A DNA stretch of 64,000 nucleotides, taken from NCBI RefSeq assembly GCF_026210795.1, contig NC_089438.1, positions 889,501 to 953,500 on the forward strand, in the 5' to 3' direction. The number at the start of each line of letters is the position of its first letter. The stretch's first letter is position 1. The DNA comes from Rhizophagus irregularis. Its lineage: Eukaryota; Glomeromycota; Glomeromycetes; Glomerales; Glomeraceae. Positions 13,962-58,305 of this stretch are shown in pieces. A program made the translations under genes and the position numbers. The notes beneath the pieces were generated by a model. It was not told the origin of the DNA and did not search any database. It saw only the letters and a program-made list of their open reading frames with translations.

Positions 13962-14715
13962 AACCTATTATAAATGATAATATTAATGAGTTTTTTTCTT
14001 TTTTTAGGGGTTTTCACGTTGTTAAAGCCAAACTTTAAAGCTGATACCGTCGGACGAAACATACCAGGTAATAAAGGACTAGTAGAAATTGTTTGGCGGA
14101 AAAATTCTAACGCTCTACCAGGATAAATGGTATAAATCCTTTTTTCTCCATTTTTTTGGTACCTTTGTTATTTTTTACTTCGGTAGGTGTTATATGGGCT
14201 AATGGTGTATGAAACAGCCTTTGGAAATGATTAAAGTATATAAATTAGGAACCAGGATGCTTAACAATTTTTTTAATAAAGTAATTAATTACATACACAT
14301 AAAATTCTTATATAGAAAAGGTCTAATAATTAATGATTAATCCTTACTTTTCTTACTTTCTTGATGGTATTGTCTTTTTATTTTGATAGAGAGTTGGTAA
14401 ATATTATATTAAAAGACTTCTTTTATTGCAGAAGCTTAATTTTAATTTTAAATCTTGTTAAAAAAAGACTTTTCATTTTCGGTAAAGTGTTGATAGGACT
14501 AATAGTATATGTTATTGCTTTTATAAATGTCATTAACTTGGTTTTAGTTCTGAATAAACGAAAATATTAGTGTGCGGACAATGCTTAATTTTATTGGCTA
14601 GTAAATATATGAATTGTGATTGTAACACAAAAGTTACTATTTGTTTACCTAATTTTTTTGTACGTCCCTTTATTTTTTTTTGCTTTTTACACACCTTATA
14701 CCTTTGTTTACTACA

Positions 14716-17135
14716 ATGCAACAAGAAAACTCTGAACCAGTTTTGTATCAAGGAAAGGCTTTCACCACTTGGAAGCAAGCATTTGAAACTATTGAAAGTC
14801 GGGCAAAGCAGCAAGGGTTTAATATCATATATAGTCGTGTTGAGAAAAAATCTGATGGAACTTTTCGTAGACGTACTGCACAATGTGAACATCATGGTAA
14901 TTATGTTACAAAATCCAATAAAGAGACAACAACAAAACGTCTAGGCTGTGCTTGGCATATTAATTTATCAGAACCTACCTCTAAAAATCCTTTTAAATAT
15001 GTTTATATTACAACACTTCATGATATCCATTCACATAATCTTAATCCTAATATCATTCAATTTGGAGATAACAAATACATACCTCCTGAAATTATGAAGG
15101 AGATTGAATTTCTTACTATTAAATGCAGAATGGGAGCTGCTACACAAAGACAATATCTTGAAGCAAAGTTCCCAGGACAAATAATTTATGATAATGATTT
15201 GTATAAAGCAATTCAACATTTTCGTCCACAAAATAAAGATGATAGTAATGATGCAGCTAAATTGTATACGAAATTACTTGAATTATCACAAAATAATCCA
15301 ATGTGGAAGGTTGCGATCAAATTTGATAATAATAATACTCTTACACATTTATTCTGGATGACGCCATCTCAGTTAGAATTATGGTATCGGTATTCAGATA
15401 TTGTGGTACAAGATGTAACTTGTAAAACCAATAGGTATGAGATGGCTTTAAGTTTATTTATTATTCTTGATGAAAATCGGAATGTAAGACTTGTTGCACA
15501 AGCATTATTAATTGATGAAACAAAAGAATCACATGAATGGTCATTTGAACAACTCAATTTAGCAACAAATAATGTGTATCCACAAGTAATAATGACAGAT
15601 GCAGATCCAGCTGTACATGCTGCGATTAGGTCTACATTTCCTACCACATACCCGATGCATTGCACTTTTCATATTAGCCAAAATTTGATTAAAAAGGTTC
15701 AAAAACTAATTGGAAATAAATTTCAAGAGTTTTTTACAAAATTTCATGCTGTACGTAATACACTAAACACACTTTCCTTTGAATCAGAATGGAGAAAATT
15801 AATTACTCAATATCCTGAAATACAGCAATATTTGATAAATACTCTTTATAATACTAAAGAATCATGGGCTCATCCTTGGACATGTCACCAATTTACTGCA
15901 GGACTCCATGCATCTTCTCCTGTAGAAAGCATTAATGCATGGATTAAAAGTTATATTTTTAACTCTAATATTTCTTTATGTGAACTTGGGGATGTAATAG
16001 AGAGAAGACAAATGGCAGAAAACAAAAAATATCAACTTGTGTTATGGAAAGCTGCTATTCCCTGTATGCCTACTCAGATTTCCACTGCTGCGTTCATGTT
16101 TACTTCTATTAACCAAAAACTTGAAGAATATTTGCCTCCTGCCATATTAGAACTTCAAAGAGATGAAATTCGTCAGTGTGTTTTTTATAATGCTGTACAA
16201 GTTACCCAAGAAGTAATTGATGAATTTGATAAAGTATATATTACAATAATAATTGTATACTTATTATGTTTGTATTTTACTTGATTTAACATTGCTATTA
16301 CATGTGTTTGCAGTATGATCTCTTATTAGGTCAATATTTGGAAGATGTATCTGATGCTCGTCAAATAACTGCAGCATGTATGATTTCCAACATTAATAAA
16401 GATCAAATTTCATCTATGTGGGCTGTAAATGTTGAAAACAAACTTGTTGAGAAACATTTTATTATCTTATTAATAAATGGATCTCATTATTGCTCTTGTC
16501 TATCTCTTATTAATCGAGGAATTATTTGCAGGCATTATTTTCAAATAATGCTTCGTAGTCCTGCAGCAAGATTCCATTTAAGACTTATTCCTTCACGATG
16601 GTATTATAGAGATAAAGATCCTAGTAAAGAGCAATTTTTAGTTGCTAGCAAATTTGAAAATGAGATTACACCTCTTATTCCTCAACATAATGTTCCATTT
16701 TTAACTGCAATTTGCAAAACATCACAAGAATTTATTACTCGGCATGAACAACTTACAGACATACAATTATATGGTAAAATTGCTGGCTTATCACATAAAG
16801 CTACTATGAAAGCTGTTAGTAAAAGGGATATACGTATAATACATATTTTGGAGAATTACTTAAAAGATGTTGATGAAGAACAAGATGAAGAACAAAATGA
16901 AAATATCGAATTAGAAGATACAAAAGATGATGAATCTGATAAGGAAAATTTTCCTTTTATTCTCAATAATCCTAATAAACAAACCAGGTCTAAAGGACGC
17001 CCGAAGGGTACAAAACGAATTAAAGCAAGCCATGAAAAAGAAAAGGCTACGACTTCAGTAAATAGTAAACAATATAAATGTGGAAATTGTGGTGATATGG
17101 GTCATAATAAGCGAAATTGTAATATTTTAAGATAG
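14716..17135 (+). CDS. MULE transposase (FAR1-like zinc finger, DDE core, SWIM finger, CCHC knuckle)
   Basis: Cuts and re-joins the transposon in which it lies. The gene model is exons 14716-16233 and 16314-17135, with an 80-bp intron (GTATAT...TTTGCAG) joined in frame, giving 779 residues. An in-frame ATG at 14680 would add 12 residues; I prefer 14716 because MQQENSEPV begins the soluble-looking part. Domains in order: a WRKY/GCM1-type (FAR1) zinc finger with Cys57, Cys78 and a His cluster at about 102-107; the MULE RNase H-like core with Asp233 (DVTCKTNRYE), Asp295 (IMTDADPA) and Glu404 (SSPVESINAW); a SWIM finger with Cys566, Cys568, Cys578 and His580; an acidic stretch; an RPKGTKR basic motif; and a C-terminal CCHC zinc knuckle (CGNCGDMGHNKRNC). 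Nothing is broken, so the enzyme may be active. The catalytic triad is seen in the sequence; activity is inferred from family knowledge. Confidence 0.93.
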
Positions 17136-22350: not shown

Positions 22351-23771
22351 TTATATGTATAATTCTTTGTACAAATTTATATAAACATAACAATTATTAA
22401 CATATAATTTTTGATCTTTCATAAATAAAGAACCTCGACCGAAATTAAAACCAGAATGATCATAATCTAATACAGCTTTAGAATAATTTATTACAAGACT
22501 CATTTTCATATTACTAGTATCTTCACTATTTTCAAAAGAAAAAATAAAATTATCAGTTGAATAATAAAATAAAAATTTATCATTATAACTAAAATTTAAA
22601 AGATCATTACTAATGGTATTAAAACCAATAGAACTATAACCACCAAAAATCTTTTCCGAATTTTTAACTTTAATTAAAACTAAACTTGCTACTTGACCTT
22701 TACATTTTTCTTTAAATGAATCATTACTAATCCCATCACGACTACCACGATAAATAAGATCAAATTTTTGTAAATTATATAATGGATCATCTTTAATAAT
22801 ATGAACAAATTTTGCACTTTTTTTATTGATCCAATTATTAATTATATTTGCAAGTCCTGGTTTGATGATTTTTGATTTAATTTTTATTTTTCCAGGTGAT
22901 AAATATGGAATATTTGTCGATAACGTCCCACCTTTGTTAAAAGAACTTACAACATCATCATAAATATGTTTGGGAAAAATTGGCTTATAAGGATAAACTT
23001 TATCAAAAAATTCGGAAGGATTAAATTCTATAAATCGAACAAGAGGAATTAATCAAATCAAAGTTTTCTTTAACGCTTCATATTCCTCATGATCCCAATT
23101 GGCTCTATTGTTATCCAAATCAGCTTGTTCGATACCCCATTTAATCAGATAATCCCAAATAACAGTTTCTTCAACTTGCAAGTCATCTCGTTCAAGTAAA
23201 TAATAAAGAATATCTTTGTCTAATTTGGAAAAACCTTTTAAAGTAATAAGTGATTGTAAGTCCATACAAATTGATTCAATACAATATTCTTGCAATTTTT
23301 CACAATTTGCAAGTTTAGAGATCGTATTAAGAACGTGAACGAAATTTTGTTGAAACCATGATTGTTTTTCTTTAATTAAATAAGATAAACAATTTTGAGA
23401 GTAATTAAATAATTCTTCAAGAAGTAACTCATCAGAAGCGACTAAAAGCCCAAGAATATCTTCACCTGGTTTATTTATCAAGTTAAGTTCACCCGTATAA
23501 ATATATCTTAAAAAGTAAAGTTACGTAAATTTAAATAAATAAATAAATGATAAATGATTATCAACTTCAACAGTCATATGATAATGTACTTACTTCAAAA
23601 TCATTTCAAAAACAGTAGGAGAAATATTTGGTTTATTAAATATGATCATGTTATTTTTTATCATAATTCATTCACTCGTTCACCAACTTGAATAATAACG
23701 TTAAAATCATCAGAATCATTTAATATTAAGGAAAGGTCTTTTGAAAGACCGGAATGGAACATTAAAGCCAT
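22351..23771 (-). pseudogene. BTB-BACK-TLDc domain protein, pseudogene
   Basis: Minus strand, start ATG at 23771 (MALMFHSGLSKDLSLILNDS). The BTB domain breaks off after NVIIQVGE. The central BTB segment expected there is missing, and the frame shifts before NNMIIFNKPNISPTVFEMIL. An 87-nt intron (23507-23593, GTAAGTA...TTTTAAG) still splices correctly to YIYTGELNLINKPGEDILGL. The BACK domain follows (EELFNYSQNCLSYLI ... YEALKKTLI). An in-frame TGA at 23053-23055 then interrupts the join to LIPLVRFIEFNPSEFFDKVY, after which the TLDc domain runs open to 22351 (KFDLIYRGSRDG, GFNFGRGSLFM). So there are three features of interest: lost BTB core, frameshift and premature stop. Intact members of this expanded family are presumed cullin-3 adaptors. 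A shortened, expressed BACK fragment cannot be excluded. Confidence 0.85.
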
Positions 23772-34728: not shown

Positions 34729-36585
34729 TCATTCAATATTATTTTCATCATCTTGATTCATTTCATTAAGATCTATAAAATAAATAAACAAATAAATATA
34801 TATAAATAAAGTAACAATAAAATAAAACATTAAAGAATAAATATCTTACCTGATTCATCTAATTGACAATCAAAACCTTCTGTAACTATAAATCAATTAA
34901 ATTAATATTAATAAAAATATTATCTTATTAATCATATAAATATAATTTACTTACATAATGCTGATTGAATAGCACATGTTTATAGAAAATATACAATAAT
35001 TAGTAACGTACTAAATATAAATTTTTATTAAAAAGTAAATTAAATTAGATTACCTGAATTTACTGGTTCTGGAAGATTTTTGAAATTTAGAAGTCTACTA
35101 GTATATATTGCTTGTGGATGTGTTTGAATGCTACTAGATCTTTTTTCACTTGTTCTGTTTAATTTGATTTTATCATCATATTCATCTACTTGAGATTCAC
35201 TATCTTTATTCATATCATTATACCGTTCATTTAATTTTTGATACAATTCCTTAGCAGTTGGTCTATTTTCTGCTTTAGCATCCCAACATTTATTAATCAA
35301 ATCTGCAAGTAATTTTGGTGTATATTTAAAAATATTTGGTCTAAGTCCTTTACATATTTTAATAGATAAAGCATAATCATGAGGAATATTATTATAAGGA
35401 GTTTCTTCAGATATATATTCATTCATCATTATTCCAAATGAATAAATATCAGATGCTTTTGTATATTGATATCCACGTAAAACTTCTGGTGCCATATAGG
35501 GTAATACTCCATAAATTCCTTCTTGTTTAGCTGATTGCTTTTCACTATTTGCTGGTTGACACATTCCTAAATCACTTATATATGGATACTCATGACATAA
35601 TATATTGCCTGAATGAAAATCTTTATGAATTTTTCCAGCATTATGAATATCTAGAAGTCCTCTTGCAATTTGTCTGAATTCATAAATTTTTGAATAATAA
35701 TTTGATTCATTATTGAGATAGTAATTTCTCAAATTTCCATCATCACAATATTTTAAAACCATCATATAATCTTTGGTATTTGGATCTTGAGTTATTCCAT
35801 AACATTGAATAACATCATAAAGATAAATCTGAAGATGAGATTTAATCTAATAAAATAATGAAAAGTGAAAAGTTTTTAATAAATATATAAATAACATATA
35901 AATAAAAATTAAAATAAATAACTTATATTTCTTATTTTAATTACCTCATTTAAAAATTCTGTACTTAAACAAGAAGAATTATCCAAACTTTTTAATGCAA
36001 ATTTTATATTCTTACCATACTTTTTCCATTTTTGATTTTCAATATCCCAAGAATCAATATATCCTTCAGGCCATTTAGCAGAATAAATTTTACCAAATCC
36101 ACCTTTGGTAATATAAGTAATATCTTTAAAATTTTCAAAAGGTATCCATTCAATATATTTTTTATAGTGCACAGCATTAAGTTGTGATTGTTGTATAAAT
36201 TCATCGATATCTTTATTTCCACTAGTCCAATTTTTAAAGTTATCCTTAAATCTTTTAGCATTACAAGGTTGACACCATTTTATTCCTGTGCCAGGTTCAT
36301 TACATTCTCCACATATTCCATATACTTGTTTTCTTTTTTCTAAGTCATTCATATAAACTACTTTTTTATTTGACTCTTCTATTAATTCAGTAGTTGAATC
36401 TATAGTAGAATTTGTAATGACATGTTCCTTTTATAATAAATAATTAAAAAAAAAACTATTACTATTTAAAAAATAATGTTATTAATAATAATGATAAAGT
36501 GAACTGTTTTTACCTGATAATCATCATTGTATTCCTTCCATAAACTTTTAAGATTTTCTTTAGAATTCATTTTGGATATTTCCAT
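34729..36585 (-). CDS. Protein kinase with N-terminal paired-cysteine motif
   Basis: Minus-strand model: exons 36514-36585, 35945-36427, 35054-35846, 34955-34960, 34850-34885 and 34729-34772. All are GT-AG and in phase, giving 477 residues. The N-terminal part has the motif Cys63-x2-Cys66 ... Cys76-x2-Cys79 (CGECNEPGTGIKWCQPCN), a likely zinc site seen in many Glomeromycotina kinases. The kinase domain follows: glycine loop TKGGFGKIY at 131-139, ATP-binding Lys170 in ALKSLD, catalytic loop HKDFHSGN with Asp261 and Asn266, metal-binding Asp277 in SDLG, and APE at 304-306 (YMAPEVLRGYQ). All key residues are present, so it should be active, and it resembles TKL-type kinases. The C-terminal tail is acidic. 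An upstream in-frame ATG pair (36585 and 36570) leaves the start slightly open. The 6-nt exon 34955-34960 is the boldest part of the model; skipping it also keeps the frame. Confidence 0.88.
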
Positions 36586-40919: not shown

Positions 40920-43163
40920 GATAAATTTTATTATTATCATATTATTACAACAATAATTTTATGGCGCAGTTTTCATTAATGACATGATAATCTTGTTTAT
41001 TCAATAAAAACATCCAAGACGTGATATAATATAAATTGAATATTATGCTTTTAATTCACTGATTGATCCATGAATATTGTAATTAAAACTTATATAATAT
41101 CATATATTCATATATTCATATTTTCATATACTATACTTTCGCTAAATCAGCATTCTCCCATTAATTAATTGTAATAGCATCATTATAATAAATAATTAGA
41201 ACCAACCAAAATTTAATAAAAGCTAGTAACGCATCACGATCATCTTTGTTAGCGTTTACTTGTTTTTCTATTTCGTGCGATCTTTTTTTGTTTTTTTTCA
41301 TTATTTTTTTTATTTTTTTATTATTATTATTTTCTATTATCAAACTTTTGCTTGTTAAAATCACTTTTCATCATCACAATGTTTCCTTCCAAAATCGTTT
41401 ATTCATAATATTGTGCGCTCTTTCTAATTCTATGACTATTAATCCAAATTTTTTTCTTAATATTTACGAAACGTGTTCAATAATCATGATATTTTTCGAT
41501 TCTTGATTACTCCTTATTCTATTAAAGCCATTATTAAATAATCCTTAAACTAATTCCTAAACCTTTAGATTTGCCAATAAATATTTTCAAATTTTCAAAT
41601 CCTCTTTAATTAATATAATAAAATCAACATTTAATCAATCTCAAACATTTGTAATATCTTGAAGATTTTATGTAAACAATTCCCCCTTCATATGTTACCA
41701 AAATATTTTCTAGTACTAAATTTCAAATAATGTCATCTCATTATCTTCATAAATTCATATGTGATCTCAAATCTTTGGATATTAGATATTTGGTGAAATT
41801 ATTATTTATTATATCATCAATAAAATTTAAAGATTTAACTTTACTACGTTTTATTATTTGTGAATAATAAATTATATTAGGTGGAATTATTAATAAAATT
41901 AATATTCGTCAAAGTATGTAAAATTGACCTATTAATATCGTAATCATTAGTTATTACAATTTACAATCATATCTAATATCAATTCCTTATATCTATCCAT
42001 CCACCTAATAATGAATCATAAAACCATATATCTACTTTTAATGTAATTATAGCGTTCAAAAATAGAAAATATAAACATCTTATTATCATCATTAATATCC
42101 TCCTCTTTACCATTATCGTACTATACTTAATGATTGAACAACAATCAATAGTAACTAAGGCGTTAGATAAATCAAGGAATGAATAAAAAATTCTAAAAGT
42201 TTTACTTACCAAATTTCATGAAATACTTTTTCGGAATGTAAATACATTAATCCAACGAGTAATACCATGTGCAATTTGTAGTCTAGTAATGTACTAAAGT
42301 TTGATTTTCAAATAATCCCTCAATTTTCCTTCATAAAATTAAAAAATAATTACTATTTATTTAAGTCTATTATATTAAAAATTAAATATAATCGGTGAGT
42401 AAATTAGATAATATAAAATGCAATAATAAATTAATAGATTTACAGCAGATTTCTCGTTAACCCGGAAAACGATTGTTATTTGAATGATCAATTTTACGTT
42501 AAACTATTTAAAAAAAAAATCATTAAATTTCTTAATAATTAAAATTAATATAATTCATTACTTTAATATACACGATGATCAAATAGCTAGACATTTTGAT
42601 ACAGATATAATGTTGGAAAAAATACGTTCAAGATAAATGTATGAAAATATAAGATATGTTTAAGCATGTGCCCAATTTGGAAATTCGCTTTCAGAAATTC
42701 TTGAATTATTCAAAATTTTTTTAATAATAACAATAATTTTTTGATCCTCCCAATTAGCTTTTTTTTTTAAAAAAAAAAATATTTCATGAATTCTATGAAT
42801 TATTATATCAATATTTTCCATCTAGATTACTAAATTTATTAAAATCAGAAATTCAATATCTTCCCCATTAATTTTTTCATCTACCCATTCTTACAAAAAA
42901 AATTTCATTATGAACAAGAATTTACTTATCTGTGATCGGTACCGAATATTTTTCTATTTTGGTTAGCGATCATCAAATATACCTAACCCTAAATTTTTGT
43001 TGACTAACCCCAAACTTTATTTGCCGTACTTGCCTACAATAAGCTAAAAAGAAAAAAATTTTTTTATTTCGATTTCTTTTAATATTTCCTTTATCACCAA
43101 GTTACGAAAAAGAAATTAAAAAAAATTTTTTATTATCATTATTCTTCTCGTTAATTTTATAAT
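40920..43163. other. Gene-free stretch
   Basis: No gene is supported. A 67-residue minus-strand frame at 41161-41364 and an 86-residue plus-strand frame at 41246-41506 overlap each other in simple A/T-rich DNA. The part from 41370 to 42900 has some ATCAT/TTCCT-rich, faintly coding-like stretches but no frame of use. Confidence 0.5.
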
Positions 43164-46100
43164 ATGGAAAAAGAAACTTTCCAAATTATGAAAAGACCTA
43201 TTGAAAGAGGGCCGATAAAAGTTCGAACAAACTTCTTTGAAGTTACTAAGTTACCGAAAACAAAAATTACACATTATGATGTAAAGATAAGTCCTGAGGT
43301 ACCACGGCGATTAAATAGGGAAGTATTTAACCGTTTTTCGGAAGAAAACCAAGAAGCCCTTGGGGGTGTAAAACCAGTATTCAATGGTACGTATTCGATA
43401 TATATATTGTTCGTTACAAATATCCAAATATTGAATAAAACAAAATTTGAATGTAATTTCATAATATAGCACAAAATTGTATTACGTATGCTTTTTTTAG
43501 AATTATCAATGCTATATAATGTCTAAATATATGCTTGTATTTAAAAGAAGGAAATGGATACTTACTAACTAATAGCAAATGTTTATAGGAAGAGCAGATA
43601 TGTTTACACACAAGCAATTGCCATTTGAAAGCAAAAGTTTTGAAGTAAATTATCTTGTTTATTTTTTTACTTTTTTTGACTTTGAATTATTAAGTTTAAT
43701 TATCATAATTAGGTGAAAATAGAGCAAGTTAACGCGCTCGTGACTAAAAAACGTCTACCTGAAATATTTAAAATTGCAATAAGAAAAATTGGAGTCATTG
43801 ACATAGAGGACCTATTCCAATTTTTACACGGAAAAGGCAACTTAACCAATAATTGCCAAATGGGTAAGCTTTTTCTTTACTTTACTTTTCTTTCTTTAAT
43901 AAAAGTGAACTTCATAATGGGTTATAATCATATTTATGTTATAAGCAATATATGCAGTGAACATCATTATCAGTCAAGAGATTTCTGCAAATCATCCTAC
44001 TTTACTATATAATTTTTATACTCCGCAGGGAGCTACATCCCTCCATGAGGGCATAGAGGCTTGGCAGGGGTATCACCAATCAGCACATCCTACAAGGGGC
44101 AAAATGATGATAAACATAGACTTACATGCTGCTGCTTTCTACGAAGGTGGTCCACTTATTCAGATGGTTGCAAAAATATTGGGTCTTAGATCTCCCAATA
44201 ATCTACGTAGACGATTATCAGATATGGAACATCAAAAAGTTGAGAAGAGAATAAAAAATCTTAGAATAAGTGATAATCATAGACCAGAAAATAAACAAAA
44301 ATTTATGATTGAGAAATTAACTCAAAATTCAGCTTCTGACATTATGCTCGAAGTTATTGGTAATAAGATTGATCTGAAAACCTATTTCCAAAATATATAT
44401 AATATACGTTTATTATATCCATTTCTTCCTTGCGTTGTTGTAAGGAAAAATATTTATCTCCCAATTGAAGTTTGTGATGTAATTCCGGTAACTATACATT
44501 AGTTCATCCATCTAGTGATATCATATGATTAAAAGAAATTTTTTATTAAAAAAATTTTTTATTACGTATAACAGGAACAACGATATTGGCGAAAATTGGA
44601 TTGTAATCAAACAAATAAAATGACAAAATTTGCTCGTCAAAATCCGACCATTCGGGCAAATAGGATTCAGACTGGTCTCAATATATTAAATTACCGAGAT
44701 AACAGATATCTTAAACAATTCGGGATGGAAGTATCAAGTGATATGACTGTGGTAGGTTTGAGATATTATTGCATCATAGGAATGTATCTCCACTAACGCG
44801 AGTTTACAGGTGAACGCTAGGATTCTCCCAACTCCAACAATTCAATACCATCAGTCATCAAGGAAGAGTCATGTCCGGCCGAATGGTGGATTGTGGAATT
44901 TACGAGATAAAAAAGTAATAAATGGTGCCATTCTCAGCTCATGGTCAATTTTGGCCTTTTTAAGTTATAAAGACTTACCTGACCAAGCTATTAAGCTTTT
45001 CATAAGAGAATTAATTACTACATGTCAAGATACAGGAATGGTAAGTTAAATTATATTAAGCCATTTTCGTATGAATCATTCAAATTTCTAATCACCTATA
45101 ACAGAATATCTCAGAGAGGGATCCTCCTATATGTCATGCAAATCCTATAGGAAATACTGGAGAATCATTAAAAAAAGCTTGGTTGAAGGCTAGAGAAAAG
45201 GCGTGGGGAGTTAAACCACAGCTTATTCTTTGTATTCTCCCAAATACTGGATCAAATTTATATGCCGAAATTAAACGTGTTAGTGACACAATTATTGGTG
45301 TCGCAACACAGTGTGTCCAAAGTACACATACGAAAAAACCGGTAAAACAATATTGTGTGAACATTTGCCTAAAGATGAACGTTAAACTTGGAGGAGAGAA
45401 TTCATTCCTCATTCCCGAACATATTCAATTCTTGGCAGATGAGCCTACTATTTTGATGGGCGCAGACATTAATTATCCTTCATCTGGTAAATTGTAATTT
45501 TTTTTTTTCACATGAATTATCTTACTAATATATTTATGTTTCTCGCATATCTCTTTAGGCTATAATGAAAGTCCATATTACGCTGCCCTATGTGGTTCCG
45601 TGAATGTTAAGGCATCACATTATGCAGCGTCAATTAGCGTTCAACCCATCTTTTCTGAAATAATAGTAGATTTGGCAAATATGGTTAAAGAATTGTTAAA
45701 AACATTTTATCAAACTTGTGGGTTAAAACCCAAAAAAATTTTATTTTACAGGAACGATGTTTCAAAGATTCAATTTAAGTATGTGCTAGAAAGAGAACTA
45801 ACTGCAATTAAAGGTAATTGAAACATTTTATTCTTAGATTTATTCATGCCTTTTGTTAACCTATTTAATTACTACAGAAGCATGTCAAAGTCTTGAGGCT
45901 GATTATAAACCCACTATCACATTTGTTGTGGTACAGAAGAGACACCGCACACGTTTTTTTCCAATAGAAAGGAAAAATGCTGATAGATCAGGAAATTGTC
46001 TTCCTGGTACTGTTGTTGAAATGGACATTACACATCCATTTGAATTTGATTTTTGTAAGTAATTAAATTGTGTATTGACATAAATTTTATAGCATTTTCT

Positions 46101-46630
46101 AAATGACTTTAAATCCTTACCAGATTTATTAAGTCATGCTGGACTACAGGGGACGTCTCGGCCAACTTATTATCAAGTTTTATATGACGAAAACGGATTT
46201 GATGCAAATAAGTAAGTCAATTTAATCTAATTTAATAATTAATTGGTATACATAATTAATATATAATTGATAATTTAGGTTACAAACGTTATCATATAAT
46301 CTCTGTCATATATATGCACGTTGTACACGTGCAGTATCTTTGGTAAGATTTTAAATTGCATTTGTTATCATTGTATGCAGTAATTAATAAATATCACATT
46401 ATATTTAAATAGGTACCTCCGGTATATTACGCCCACCTAGCTGGCAAAAGGGCAAGACTTTACTCATTTCATTACACTGATACGGAATCATCTGAAGGTG
46501 GCAAAAATGTTGCAGTAGCAGTAAGGGAAGAGCTACGAAAGGTAAATTTAAGATGACTTGAATGTGAATTATTCTCAATTATCTCATTTCTATAATAAAC
46601 TCTTCCTTTTAGGTTATGTACTTTATATAA
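43164..46630 (+). CDS. Argonaute protein with altered slicer site
   Basis: Model of 13 exons: 43164-43386, 43589-43644, 43713-43863, 43958-44487, 44575-44751, 44810-45040, 45105-45486, 45559-45813, 45878-46054, 46124-46211, 46279-46342, 46413-46541, 46613-46630. Every junction is GT-AG and in phase, giving 826 residues, the normal size for a eukaryotic Argonaute. N domain, then the linker and PAZ region ([20 protein letters not shown], later [20 protein letters not shown]), MID and PIWI follow in the usual order, ending in MYFI. The MID pocket for the guide 5' phosphate is intact: Tyr509, Lys513, Gln525 and Lys550 have the same spacing as in human AGO2. In PIWI, Asp577 ([10 protein letters not shown]), Glu628 (MVKELL) and His786 (YYAHLAG) are kept, but the third catalytic position is Asn649 ([11 protein letters not shown], where active proteins have YRDG). 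It therefore probably binds small RNAs and silences without slicing. An AATAAA lies at 46886-46891. It is convergent with the transposase at 47750-51206. Confidence 0.93.
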
Positions 46631-47238: not shown

Positions 47239-50200
47239 AAAACAAGTACAGTATGGAATCCTATGTATGTATGTATGGTGACCTATGTATGGATGTATGG
47301 TGGCCTATGTATAGTATATTACTATTGTGATAACGGTAATATGAAAAGTTGTAGAGTCGGATCAACCAACTGAGTATTGTATGATGTTAAAATTGTATTG
47401 AGTATGGTATGTATAATCATACAATACATTAATTATACAATACATTACATGTTAGTTGATATACTTATTAACATTTGAAATGTGTGATGTATAACTTTAA
47501 TAAATAGATTTCAGTAAAATTATAACAAAAAGCAATTGAGTATGAAATTGAAATTTACAAAGTTATTAAAGAATAAATATATGTAAAAACTTAATAAATT
47601 ATCAAATTTTAGATTTTTCAACGTAAGAACTATTTGTATTTTTGATTTATTTGTAAAATTCTATATACCGATATAATAGCGGTCAAAATAGCAATGATCT
47701 GCTAATTACTTCGTTTAATTTGTAAAAAAAAAGATTGCTGTTACCTAGACTATTTAGTAGAATTTAACACATGTTCTTTTTCTGCAAGTGATAATTCCAT
47801 TTCACGAATTTTTGCTTCTTTTTCTCTTAAAATAAGTTCACGTTCCCTTAAAGCTAAAGCTCGTTCTTGAAATTCAAGCTCACTAAATTTTAAAGTTAAT
47901 TCACTTTCTTTATCATCCCCTTCAGTACCATTTCTTGTTTTAATCTTTTTGCTAGAAATCGTACATATATTCTCTTTATCATCCTCTTCAATTTCAATAA
48001 TATTTGTTTTAGTTTTCTTATTAGAACCTGTATGTTCATTTTGTTTACGTTTGGTAGGAACTACTTTCGTCAACTTCTTAGCTATATAAATAAATTATAA
48101 ATTGAAACAATTTAATGTTAATTACAATATTGTTATTTAGCATTACAACTGAAATTCTAAAAATATACTTACCATTACGTTTATTGGACATAACATTACG
48201 TGAAATCAGACCTTTATCACATCCTTTATTTGGTATATTATATTTTTGGTGAACATAAATGGTAGTAAATCTTTCTTTATCTAATTTTTGACCACTGTAA
48301 TAAATTAACTTAATAAATAAATAATAATTTTTTAAAGGACAAATTATATATCTACATACTGTAAAATAGCCGTTAACAATTTAAGATCTCTTCCACGTTG
48401 ATTGCTTAGCGCATGAGCCGATTCTGCTACATTTGTATTATCAGGTGATGTTATCCAAACATCATTAGCAATTTTTGACATGGATTTATTAAGTGACGCA
48501 ATAACCCATTTTTGACGATAGAACGTAATCCAATCTAAAAATAATACCATTTAGTAATATTACAATAAAAATTCATTTATTAAGTTTTACTAACCTGCAG
48601 CATCCTCTTCAATTGCTTGAATATCATCAAATACTTGATTAATTGCACTTTCTGATTCAGCTGTAAGAAGTGCAACCATTTTGTTCTTTACAATATCATT
48701 GTAATCCTTTTCCCAAATTTTTCTAAATATTAATAATTAAATAAATTAGTTTTTTTGTTTAAATAAAGTTTATTTATAAATATAATATCTTTTTTTAATA
48801 GTTTTTCTTTAGACTTAAAAAAAAACAAATAATTACCTTTTATAATGGACTAAACAAGATCTAAAAATATGAACCAAATGTTCCTCCCAGTCCTTTGTAT
48901 TATCAATTTCATTTAGAGCCAATCCAAGTCCTTTTGCTTGGGCATAATCAAGATCTGCAATGATGCAATTCCAACCAGATCCATGAATATGTTTAAACTG
49001 AGGGGGTAAACCCATTAATTGTAATACAAGATCAAATAAAACGTGAAAAATTCTTTGATACGCAATAGTTGTTGCACGATTAGTAAACACTCGGGCAAAT
49101 GTAAGAACTAAAAATAAATATCAATTATCAATTAATATATATAATTTCAAAATTTATAGTATTAAAAACAATAAAATATATTAAATTATCATTAAATATC
49201 ATATAGTAAGAAACTTACTCAAGTTATGTTCATTACTATAATAATTAATCTCAAATTCATTTATTTCACCCATTACACGCTTGAAAGACAAATCGATTTG
49301 AAAATGTTTGCACTTTATCCATTCATTTAATTGTTCAGAAGTTGTACAAACAATTATTACATGTTCATCTTCAAAGAATTCTAATAATAAAAATAATATA
49401 TTATTTCCTTAAAACTGTCATTAAATAAATTAAATACAAAAAGTAAAATTTACTTTTAATTTTTACCTAAACGGTTTACATAATCACGAAAATTATTAAT
49501 ATTACGTGAATAATTGTAAACAACTCCTAGCAATCCTTGCCCTTGTGGATGAATTTCTTTCTGAATCTTATCAACATAATACCGAAGATGATCAGTATTA
49601 TTTAATGATGCATGTATATCAGAAAGATATTCAACGCCAAAATAAGTTTTAATTAAATTTCCTATCAAATAAAATACATACAATTAGTATGAATTTAAAA
49701 AATTTTTATAAAAATAAAAAAAAAATCTTGTATAATAAATATAAATAAATATAAATAAATATATATATTTTTATTTTTTTATTATTTACCTGTTATAATA
49801 TGAGTTGGAGTAACATCAGCATTATCATTATTTGCTTGGTGAATTAATTCTTGTAGACGTGTATGAATAGTAACAGGTACTTGGTTTGGAGGTGGCGGAG
49901 GATGAGTATGAATTCCTTTTGATATAAGGATCACAAATGGACAGCTTTTAATATCAACAGGAATTAGTTTAGAAAATCTAACTTCACATAATTTTTTCAT
50001 AAGCTTTCCTTGTGTAATGGTATTTTCTGAACGATGTGGATGTGCTGATAGTATACATAATTATGTGAATAAACTGAAGTAATTTAGCAGTAAAAGTTAA
50101 AAATTATATTAAAATTTAATGACTTACGACAATATATTCTTTTCGTACTATTGCTGAATACTAAATAACAATTATTTACTGGTTCATCCGTTTCTCCCTA

Positions 50201-56747: not shown

Positions 56748-56841
56748 TCACCCATTTAGTAAAGTTCATAAATACTAAATACTAAATACCAAAAAAAAAG
56801 AAAAAATATTTCTTTTTTTTTTGAAATAATAAAACAATAAA

Positions 56842-58305
56842 ATGGCATATCGACTTCCAGCTGATTGTTTAAATGAAATTTTTGAATATTTAGAGTTAGA
56901 TAGATTCACTCTACACTCATGTCTGTTAGTTAATCATCTTTGGTGTGAACTTTCTGTTAGAATTTTATGGAGGAATACTTTGAATATCAAATTTGATTAT
57001 AAACATTCATTTAAAATAGAATCGTCAATTCTTAGTACATTAATTGCTTGTCTTCCTAATGAATCAAAAAAGCTATTGCATGATAATAAAATTTTTATTT
57101 CAACACCCACTTCAAACCCATTGTTGTTTAATTATGCATCATTTTGCAAAACTCTTTCAATTTATGAGATTAATAGGATGATTGATAGTGTCCTCAAAAA
57201 TAAGCCATCATTAGATTCAAAATATAAAAATAGTTTAGTTGCAAATGAAATTATCAAAATGTTTGCAAGTCAAATTTCTTCATTGAAAAAATTGACTTAT
57301 CATCATACTTTTTATTATAATCTTAATGTTTCTTTCCCTCATTTTCCCGGAGCAAGAGATCTTTTAGAATTATGTTGTAGTTCAGATCTTTCTTCAGATT
57401 TTTTTTATCAATTATCTCAAATATGTCATAATTTACAATCTATTTCTATAGATTTTTATGATAGTTCTACAAACGAGTTAAAAGAATTAATTTCTTCACA
57501 GAATAATTTAAAAAATTTAAATTTATCAGCTTTTAATGGAAGTTGGGCAGATATTATACCTTCTTTAACAAAGCATTCTCATACAATAACAAAATTAAAA
57601 CTTTATAGTGATGATAGTAATTCATTCTCATTTGTTAGTTCATTCCCAAATTTACAAGAATTAATAATCTCATCCTTTGATGGAGTATTTGAAGATTTTA
57701 AAAAATTACAATATGTTAATTTTTCAAAATTACAAATTTTAAAAATTCCTTATGAATGTCCAAAACCTGAGTATTTAATGAAATTTTTAGAAAATAATGG
57801 AAAGAGTCTTAAAAAATTTTATATAGGTGGAAGTAACAAAGCTTTAAGGTTATCTATTGCTAAATTTTGTCCAAACCTTAAAAGTCTTTTCATAATATTT
57901 AAAAATGGTGAGCTAGAGGTACTAAAAACCATACTTACCAGTTGTCAATACTTAGAAAGTATTAAAATTTGGTGTGGTAAAGATTATTTATCTGAAAAAG
58001 AAGTATTAGAAACTGTTGCAAAATATTCACCAATTAATTTTTGTGAATTAAAAATACACCATATTACTACAAATTCGGATGCATCTCCGGATGATTTGGA
58101 ATCATTCTTTATAAGCTGGGAAAGAAGAACACCAAAAAAATTACTCTCATTTATAATTATTGATGATATGGAAATTTATTATGGTTATAGTTTTGAAATT
58201 TTAGAAATAATAGAAAAATATGAAGATTTAGGCATAATTGAATTTATAACTAAAAGTGAGGAGAAAGAAAACGAAGAAGAGGAGGAGTATTATGATTTTA
58301 ATTAA
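56842..58305 (+). CDS. F-box/LRR-like protein, intact
   Basis: Single exon, 487 residues. The N-terminal F-box spans about residues 3-45 (RLPADCLNEIFEYLELDRFT, then SCLLVNHLWCELSVRILWRN) and should bind Skp1 in an SCF ubiquitin ligase. The family linker follows (LIACLPNESKKLLHDNK, PLLFNYASFCKTLSIYEI). The C-terminal two thirds is a degenerate leucine-rich repeat region (LISSQNNLKNLNLS, SFPNLQELIIS, KFLENNGKSLKKFYI, LTSCQYLESIKIW), the presumed substrate-binding part. It closes with FFISWERRTPKKLLSFII and an acidic tail of Glu residues. No stop or shift interrupts it. It is the reference for the two pseudogenes at 10469 and 18628, which share its order of motifs. The ATG sits in an A-rich context (AATAAAATGG), and there is no closer upstream in-frame start. 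The substrate is unknown. Confidence 0.92.
   Translation: MAYRLPADCLNEIFEYLELDRFTLHSCLLVNHLWCELSVRILWRNTLNIKFDYKHSFKIESSILSTLIACLPNESKKLLHDNKIFISTPTSNPLLFNYASFCKTLSIYEINRMIDSVLKNKPSLDSKYKNSLVANEIIKMFASQISSLKKLTYHHTFYYNLNVSFPHFPGARDLLELCCSSDLSSDFFYQLSQICHNLQSISIDFYDSSTNELKELISSQNNLKNLNLSAFNGSWADIIPSLTKHSHTITKLKLYSDDSNSFSFVSSFPNLQELIISSFDGVFEDFKKLQYVNFSKLQILKIPYECPKPEYLMKFLENNGKSLKKFYIGGSNKALRLSIAKFCPNLKSLFIIFKNGELEVLKTILTSCQYLESIKIWCGKDYLSEKEVLETVAKYSPINFCELKIHHITTNSDASPDDLESFFISWERRTPKKLLSFIIIDDMEIYYGYSFEILEIIEKYEDLGIIEFITKSEEKENEEEEEYYDFN

Follow-up and report, generated by a model that had tools for sequence, protein, structure and literature searches.

Introduction

It is an open question why an arbuscular mycorrhizal fungus should retain some 40 Argonautes, and the locus described here gives that question a specific form: what might a copy be kept for that appears able to hold a small-RNA guide and carries asparagine at the third catalytic position? 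In Rhizophagus irregularis 40 AGO-like genes have been described (PMC6399891), and papers on this species describe AGO expansion and link it to MULE transposons (PMC6399891, PMC8647823, PMC11075540); the gene studied here most probably belongs to that published family. Papers are cited throughout for the portions of their text that were covered.

The window, that is the whole stretch of DNA analysed, spans 64 kb (C10:889501-953500) of a 146.7 Mb genome in 32 contigs. At least 43 Piwi-domain loci, the focal one included, were hand-grouped from at least 105 matches across this genome, and spliced models were built for 43. The tree and all counts rest on 34 near-full-length models from this one genome. 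Excluded were L006, which has nine frameshifts and five stops, and eight fragments (L024, L025, L026, L027, L029, L040, L042 and L043). L019, with one frameshift and one stop in its model, was retained with the stop treated as a gap, and the model of L033 stops at the edge of the extracted sequence.

An AGO-clade Argonaute with a kept guide pocket and an altered active site

The Argonaute gene at 43164-46630 runs on the forward strand from an ATG at 43164 to a TAA at 46630, in 13 exons separated by 12 GT-AG introns (Table 1), and yields the same open frame of 826 residues that had been obtained from the letters of the sequence in a preliminary description. The identical 13-exon model was returned when the protein served as its own query in a spliced aligner, a test that is partly circular; with the family profile as query, only the first two residues and the exon 4 acceptor differed, the alternative acceptor lying 12 nt upstream and adding the four residues AIYA, a long way from the active site. 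No frameshift, stop or broken splice site was found across the 13 exons. The Pfam domains ArgoN, ArgoL1, PAZ, ArgoL2, ArgoMid and Piwi follow in this order, all six above cut-off. In a search of solved chains, full-length chains of argonaute-1 to -4 and argonaute 10 scored 540-569 bits, as against at most 132 bits for PIWI chains; the best-scoring ones, at up to 568.7 bits, were those of argonaute-1, which we take to be human AGO1. The domain order, the Y-K-Q-K pocket and the greater similarity to AGO than to PIWI mark the predicted protein as a eukaryotic AGO-clade Argonaute.

Table 1. Positions in the window of the Argonaute gene, its key residues and neighbouring domains
Feature	Position	Strand	Basis
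Argonaute exons (13)	43164-43386, 43589-43644, 43713-43863, 43958-44487, 44575-44751, 44810-45040, 45105-45486, 45559-45813, 45878-46054, 46124-46211, 46279-46342, 46413-46541, 46613-46630	+	
MID 5'-phosphate pocket codons Y509, K513, Q525, K546, K550	45261-45386	+	alignment to argonaute-1
First tetrad residue D577, then I578, N579, Y580 replacing the usual Val-Thr-His	45465-45476	+	model alignment
Glutamate finger E628, kept	45690-45692	+	
Third tetrad position, N649 (AAC)	45753-45755	+	
D650 (GAT; the 33 other models have Gly)	45756-45758	+	
K653 replacing a conserved Glu	45765-45767	+	model alignment
Fourth tetrad residue H786, kept	46434-46436	+	
Pocket residue R791	46449-46451	+	
TLDc and BACK domains	22351-23520	-	
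Protein kinase domain	35040-35846	-	
Weak F-box-like match, 23.0 bits, just under the 24.3 cut-off	56833-58305		

The four MID residues named previously (Tyr509, Lys513, Gln525 and Lys550) are correct and align with identical residues of argonaute-1. Together with K546 and R791, which we take to be pocket residues as well, they form a six-residue set that reads YKQKKR in 33 of the 34 models, all 11 tetrad-broken ones among them, and the six columns show zero changes in a 24-row clade (p 0.030). The sole model with altered 5'-phosphate residues is L022 (C7:3845600-3850000), which has His at 509 and Gln at 791 and the tetrad DEDH.

The catalytic tetrad of the focal protein is D577/E628/N649/H786, followed at 650 by Asp, exactly as first read, and thus departs from the DED[H/D] of slicer-competent Argonautes. 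Besides N649, three conserved features of the active site are changed: the Thr-His pair has become N579-Y580, Gly650 is Asp and Glu653 is Lys. The first and the last of these are support for slicer loss that the preliminary description did not include. His580 is present in 31 of the 34 models, position 579 being variable, and Lys at 653 occurs in five of the 34, which are the five focal-clade members with a broken tetrad and no others. We take D132 of RNase H to be the counterpart of the third catalytic acid. Its change from Asp to Asn (D132N) in an RNase H complex prevents cleavage with the hybrid still bound (PMC7544225), and in structures of AtAGO10 and HsAGO2 the change of the third Asp to Ala removes metal B (PMC10772731). 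The Thr-His pair, which is conserved across eukaryotic AGOs, grips the target at t10 in AtAGO10 and lets the glutamate finger close (PMC10772731). The codon for N649 falls well within exon 8 and recurs as AAC in the sister gene L039, which makes a base error or mis-splicing unlikely. As to the initial reading that the protein binds small RNA and cannot slice, the pocket residues are kept and the slicer chemistry is very probably lost, while binding and non-slicing are what we infer from these residues.

The neighbouring Asp650 had also suggested a local one-residue shift, with the catalytic aspartate displaced by one position. This proposal fails on comparison with the relatives: the segment has no indel, Gly650 is found in 33 of the 34 models, and L019, L038 and the sister L039 (support 100/99) read YRNG. 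In L039 the shared AAC codon is followed by GGT, from which the GAT of the focal gene is one base away. Since L039 combines N649 with Gly650, the asparagine came first and D650 arose later, as a separate change without an indel; judged from this alignment, Asp650 is not a displaced catalytic Asp.

Recurrent loss of slicer residues across the family

The tetrad was broken, in the sense of departing from DE/DD-D-H, in 11 of the 34 near-full-length models. The states comprised DEDH (17), DDDH (6), DENH (3), SENR (2), SEDH (2) and one each of DEDS, SEDR, DEDN and DEAR. The DDDH pattern may or may not affect cutting, according to a Phytophthora paper (PMC6284064), and since the six DDDH models were scored as intact, the broken count could be higher. 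Five of the broken copies fall in the seven-gene clade of the focal gene (support 100/100), in which the focal gene, L019 and L038 are DENH, L039 is SENR, L020 is DEDN, and L018 and L036 are DEDH. N649 is present in the focal gene, L039, L019 and L038 and, far off in the tree, in L005.

The preliminary description had pointed to a single specialised branch in which Asn would be fixed, and this did not survive the tree. A single origin of N649 in the focal gene, L039, L019 and L038 was rejected (AU p 3e-91, at a cost of 287 log units), as was a single origin of K653 in its five rows (AU p 0.006, 35 log units); these tests used a DNA tree of 11 rows with the trait columns removed, and the groups were named after the tree had been seen. 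A grouping of the focal gene with L039 and L019 was not rejected (AU p 0.077), the order of L018, L019 and L036 being unresolved, and the focal gene, L039 and L019 may share one loss. Among the models of this genome Asn is not fixed in a clade, the close relatives L036 and L018 have an intact DEDH, and loss recurs. On the tree the fewest changes, reversals counted, are four, five and six at positions 577, 649 and 786, respectively; the count at 649 includes the change to Ala in L028. The feature is real and unusual, and wider than first noted: the sequences point to recurrent slicer loss, with the guide pocket kept, in a fast-evolving fungal Argonaute family.

Local gene conversion spreading a broken exon 8 was considered and set aside: identity in 250-base windows shows no block in exon 8 where L019 or L038 jumps towards the focal gene, although this comparison is no formal recombination test and conversion may still act elsewhere, above all in a cluster on contig C30. 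That cluster (C30:1583000-1599600) is a head-to-tail array of L006, L012, L011, L010 and L001, four open copies beside a badly damaged one, and the tetrads of the four open copies are SEDH, SEDH, SEDR or DEDS. A further observation concerns SENR, which appears in two distant clades, in L039 (C5:4778700-4782850) and L005 (C28:1777700-1781900), the two genes using codons with different third bases.

An important aspect of these losses is whether they stand out from the variation of other conserved positions. As a reference we used 21 intact models (DEDH or DDDH) outside the focal clade, with 80 invariant columns; E628 lies outside this set because both Glu and Asp occur there. The seven-gene clade alters 14 of the 80 columns, including all three tetrad columns in the set (hypergeometric p 0.0044, or 0.025 with N649 taken as given), a test made after the tetrad had been seen and biased in favour of the result by the absence of tetrad-broken rows from the reference. 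When the test was repeated against ten distant rows, among them tetrad-broken ones, p was 0.0054 (149 conserved columns, 24-row clade). There the tetrad columns changed three, three and four times, and 27 of the 149 columns reach at least three changes; at least four changes were seen in 13, of which just one belongs to the tetrad, so conserved columns outside the tetrad are equally variable. At the level of single copies, L010, L011 and L001 each depart at one of the 80 invariant columns, in each case a tetrad column, and L036 and L018 at none; in a looser set of 114 columns the departures number two for L010, two for L011, four for L001, one for L018 and two for L036.

The focal protein itself departs at eight of the 80 columns, differing from the 21 reference rows also at 187, 590, 692 and 743. 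Two of these changes replace the conserved H692 and H743, and together they may weaken guide or target contacts. The human residue matching 743 is presumably a guide-backbone contact, in which case the guide path beyond the intact 5' pocket may be impaired.

Selection on tetrad-intact and tetrad-broken copies

Between the focal gene and L039, pairwise omega is 0.60 (dN 0.106, dS 0.177; LRT 11.9 against 1). Omega was 0.625 in the seven-gene clade as against 0.325 on the remaining branches (LRT 53.9), these being the stem and the sister group of four genes. Within the clade, broken lineages (0.60) did not differ from intact and internal branches (0.67; LRT 0.6), and giving the focal gene its own omega brought no gain either (LRT 0.02). 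Tetrad-broken copies are no less constrained than their intact sisters. That constraint is modest, given the high omega of the clade (0.6) and an exon identity below intron identity in four of the five pairs compared (0.894 and 0.902, respectively, for the focal gene and L039).

In the focal clade, M2a was favoured over M1a (LRT 35.95, p 1.6e-8), with about 10% of codons at an omega near 3, and M8 over M8a (LRT 36.9); these tests relied on custom codon-model code, and gene conversion can inflate tests of this kind. The M2a statistic was 37.1 when the tetrad columns, 650 and 653 were removed, 33.4 without L019 and 19.8 in four broken copies alone; the two halves of the gene, each with its own tree, gave 14.9 and 21.5. 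In 48 simulations under M1a the maximum was 5.8, against 36.8 observed in that set-up. Among control groups, the L005 clade gave 1.0 and the L014 group 0, the intact sister clade 9.3 (p 0.0096, 0.8% of sites) and the C30 cluster, which contains other tetrad-broken copies, 20.7 (1.7% of sites). As both the intact sister clade and the C30 cluster exceed 9, the positive-selection signal is not unique to the focal clade. The tetrad sites 577, 649 and 786 had posteriors of 0.17-0.29 for the class with omega above 1, which is not significant.

The open frame can be set against neutral expectation. In a simple neutral simulation over half the dS between the focal gene and L039, 7.2 stops are expected, and at a distance of 0.05, near half the intron divergence, 4.4 (P of none 0.0095); the focal gene has none. 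Overall, the pattern is one of fast evolution with the frame kept, common to cutting and non-cutting copies, and not of decay confined to the broken ones.

Discussion

We consider it probable, on the strength of these comparisons, that the focal gene encodes a maintained, guide-loading, slicer-dead AGO-clade Argonaute that acts by recruiting partners or by competition. The intact 5'-phosphate pocket would load a small RNA; Asn649 would remove the third metal-binding carboxylate and, with neighbouring target-anchoring residues changed too, the target would not be cleaved. The protein would then hold the guide-matched RNA and either recruit partners or compete with cutting Argonautes. On this account the family, expanded in this fungus, would have lost slicing several times without release of the protein from selection. 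The gene structure, the residue states and their recurrence, the kept frame and the selection can be read from the sequences; guide loading, the lack of slicing and the step that follows are deduced from them.

The best-placed rival is a decaying duplicate, a redundant copy that lost its slicer residues on the way to becoming a pseudogene. The duplicates are young, omega is high, exon divergence is about that of introns, and the damaged relatives L006 and L019 point the same way, the frameshift and stop of the latter meaning that decay does occur in the focal clade. Low expression would fit as well: in one study just one R. irregularis AGO-like gene exceeded 100 TPM, the rest being weak or silent (PMC11075540). 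Elsewhere, 27 of the 40 AGO-like genes were reported as expressed (PMC6399891), and 10 AGO proteins were found in spores (PMC8647823). We nevertheless hold decay to be unlikely, because the 13 exons are undamaged where neutrality since the split from L039 predicts four to seven stops, omega between these two genes is below 1, broken lineages show no relaxation beyond that of the other branches in the clade, the positive-selection signal is also seen in four broken copies alone, and the pocket residues are untouched.

A decoy or regulator, which would hold small-RNA duplexes or targets without silencing and so damp cutting Argonautes or foreign small RNAs, seems to us quite improbable. In fission yeast, the siRNA associated with catalytically inactive Ago1 is mostly double-stranded (PMC13136243), the pocket is kept in the focal protein and a positive-selection signal would fit conflict with transposons or viruses, but nothing in these sequences distinguishes the focal protein from a silencing effector. 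That slicing persists, with Asp650, or Asn649 with a water, supporting a weakened active site, is highly improbable, for although three tetrad residues (D577, E628 and H786) remain and the lost one has an acidic neighbour, D650 arose later and without an indel, a residue adjacent on the strand would usually face away, N579/Y580 and K653 alter further active-site neighbours, and an Asp-to-Asn change at the RNase H active site prevents cleavage (PMC7544225).

If a maintained, guide-loading, slicer-dead Argonaute is the right reading, its guides deserve thought. Since a slicer-dead Argonaute cannot cut the passenger strand, and inactive fission-yeast Ago1 is mostly bound to duplex siRNA (PMC13136243), the focal protein may need single-stranded guides. 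The RNA-dependent RNA polymerase domain PF05183 has 62 matches in the genome, a per-exon count in which matches from one gene were not merged, and 21 RNA-dependent RNA polymerase proteins have been published for R. irregularis (PMC6399891). The many polymerase genes and the possible need for single-stranded guides are the basis of a tentative proposal, possible but not likely, of an independent WAGO-like layer: RNA-dependent RNA polymerases would make single-stranded guides for repeatedly evolved slicer-dead Argonautes diversifying under transposon conflict, with intact sisters still cutting.

Comparison with known systems

Nematodes have many RNA-dependent RNA polymerase genes, as does this genome. 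Their WAGOs are an expanded group without the catalytic tetrad that acts downstream without cutting of its own (PMC4245922), and the focal tetrad is likewise broken, at one of four positions. The losses in this fungus, however, have recurred, are recent and partial, and stand beside intact sister copies, and a published tree places no relatives of nematode group 3 in R. irregularis (PMC6399891). Human AGO1 offers another likeness: its AGO architecture is complete and a single tetrad position is altered, the fourth, which is Arg in our alignment. In the focal protein it is the third position that is altered, with His retained at the fourth, and the protein sits in a fast-evolving fungal clade.

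Two further fungi, presumably Glomeromycotina, are also rich in Argonautes. A survey names them as having similarly high Argonaute numbers, and it describes the first three tetrad positions as universal, with divergence in long-B prokaryotic Argonautes (PMC12477606). In the earlier funRNA work, fungi showed good conservation of the first two DDH residues and variation at the third (PMC4290597). These surveys treat the same family with the same kind of motif analysis; in R. irregularis, both Asp positions have been lost repeatedly. Among top-ranked titles and abstract openings we found no earlier report of slicer loss in this species, supplements and subscription papers being outside this scope. 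No survey of catalytic residues was found in the covered main text of PMC6399891, where "slicer" and "tetrad" are absent and "catalytic" appears once; "slicer", "tetrad" and "catalytic" are all absent from that of PMC7082362 (Gigaspora), and "catalytic", "DEDH" and "slicer" from that of PMC8647823. None of six residue names was found in PMC9262622.

If a third of the near-full-length copies are indeed non-cutting and keep a guide pocket, with a positive-selection signal in one such group, the expansion would consist at least partly of non-cutting binders and not simply of more slicers. The puzzle of gene number would then become a direct test of which copies load RNA and which cut, and R. irregularis would offer a second lineage, beside nematodes, for studying recurrent slicer loss.

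Surroundings of the gene in the window

A MULE transposase domain lies in an open frame at 14653-16284, about 26 kb upstream of the Argonaute, and is followed by a second open frame (16290-17135) with no Pfam match; proximity of Argonautes and MULEs has already been published (PMC8647823). About 690 bases downstream of the Argonaute is a dispersed repeat (47317-48200), found elsewhere in the genome at up to 91% identity over about 880 bases. The 5' flank of the gene (42123-43029) resembles several sites at 2.6-2.9 Mb of C28 without a listed Piwi match and also the flanking sequence of L039 and L020, and this shared upstream region could be a mobile or a family element.
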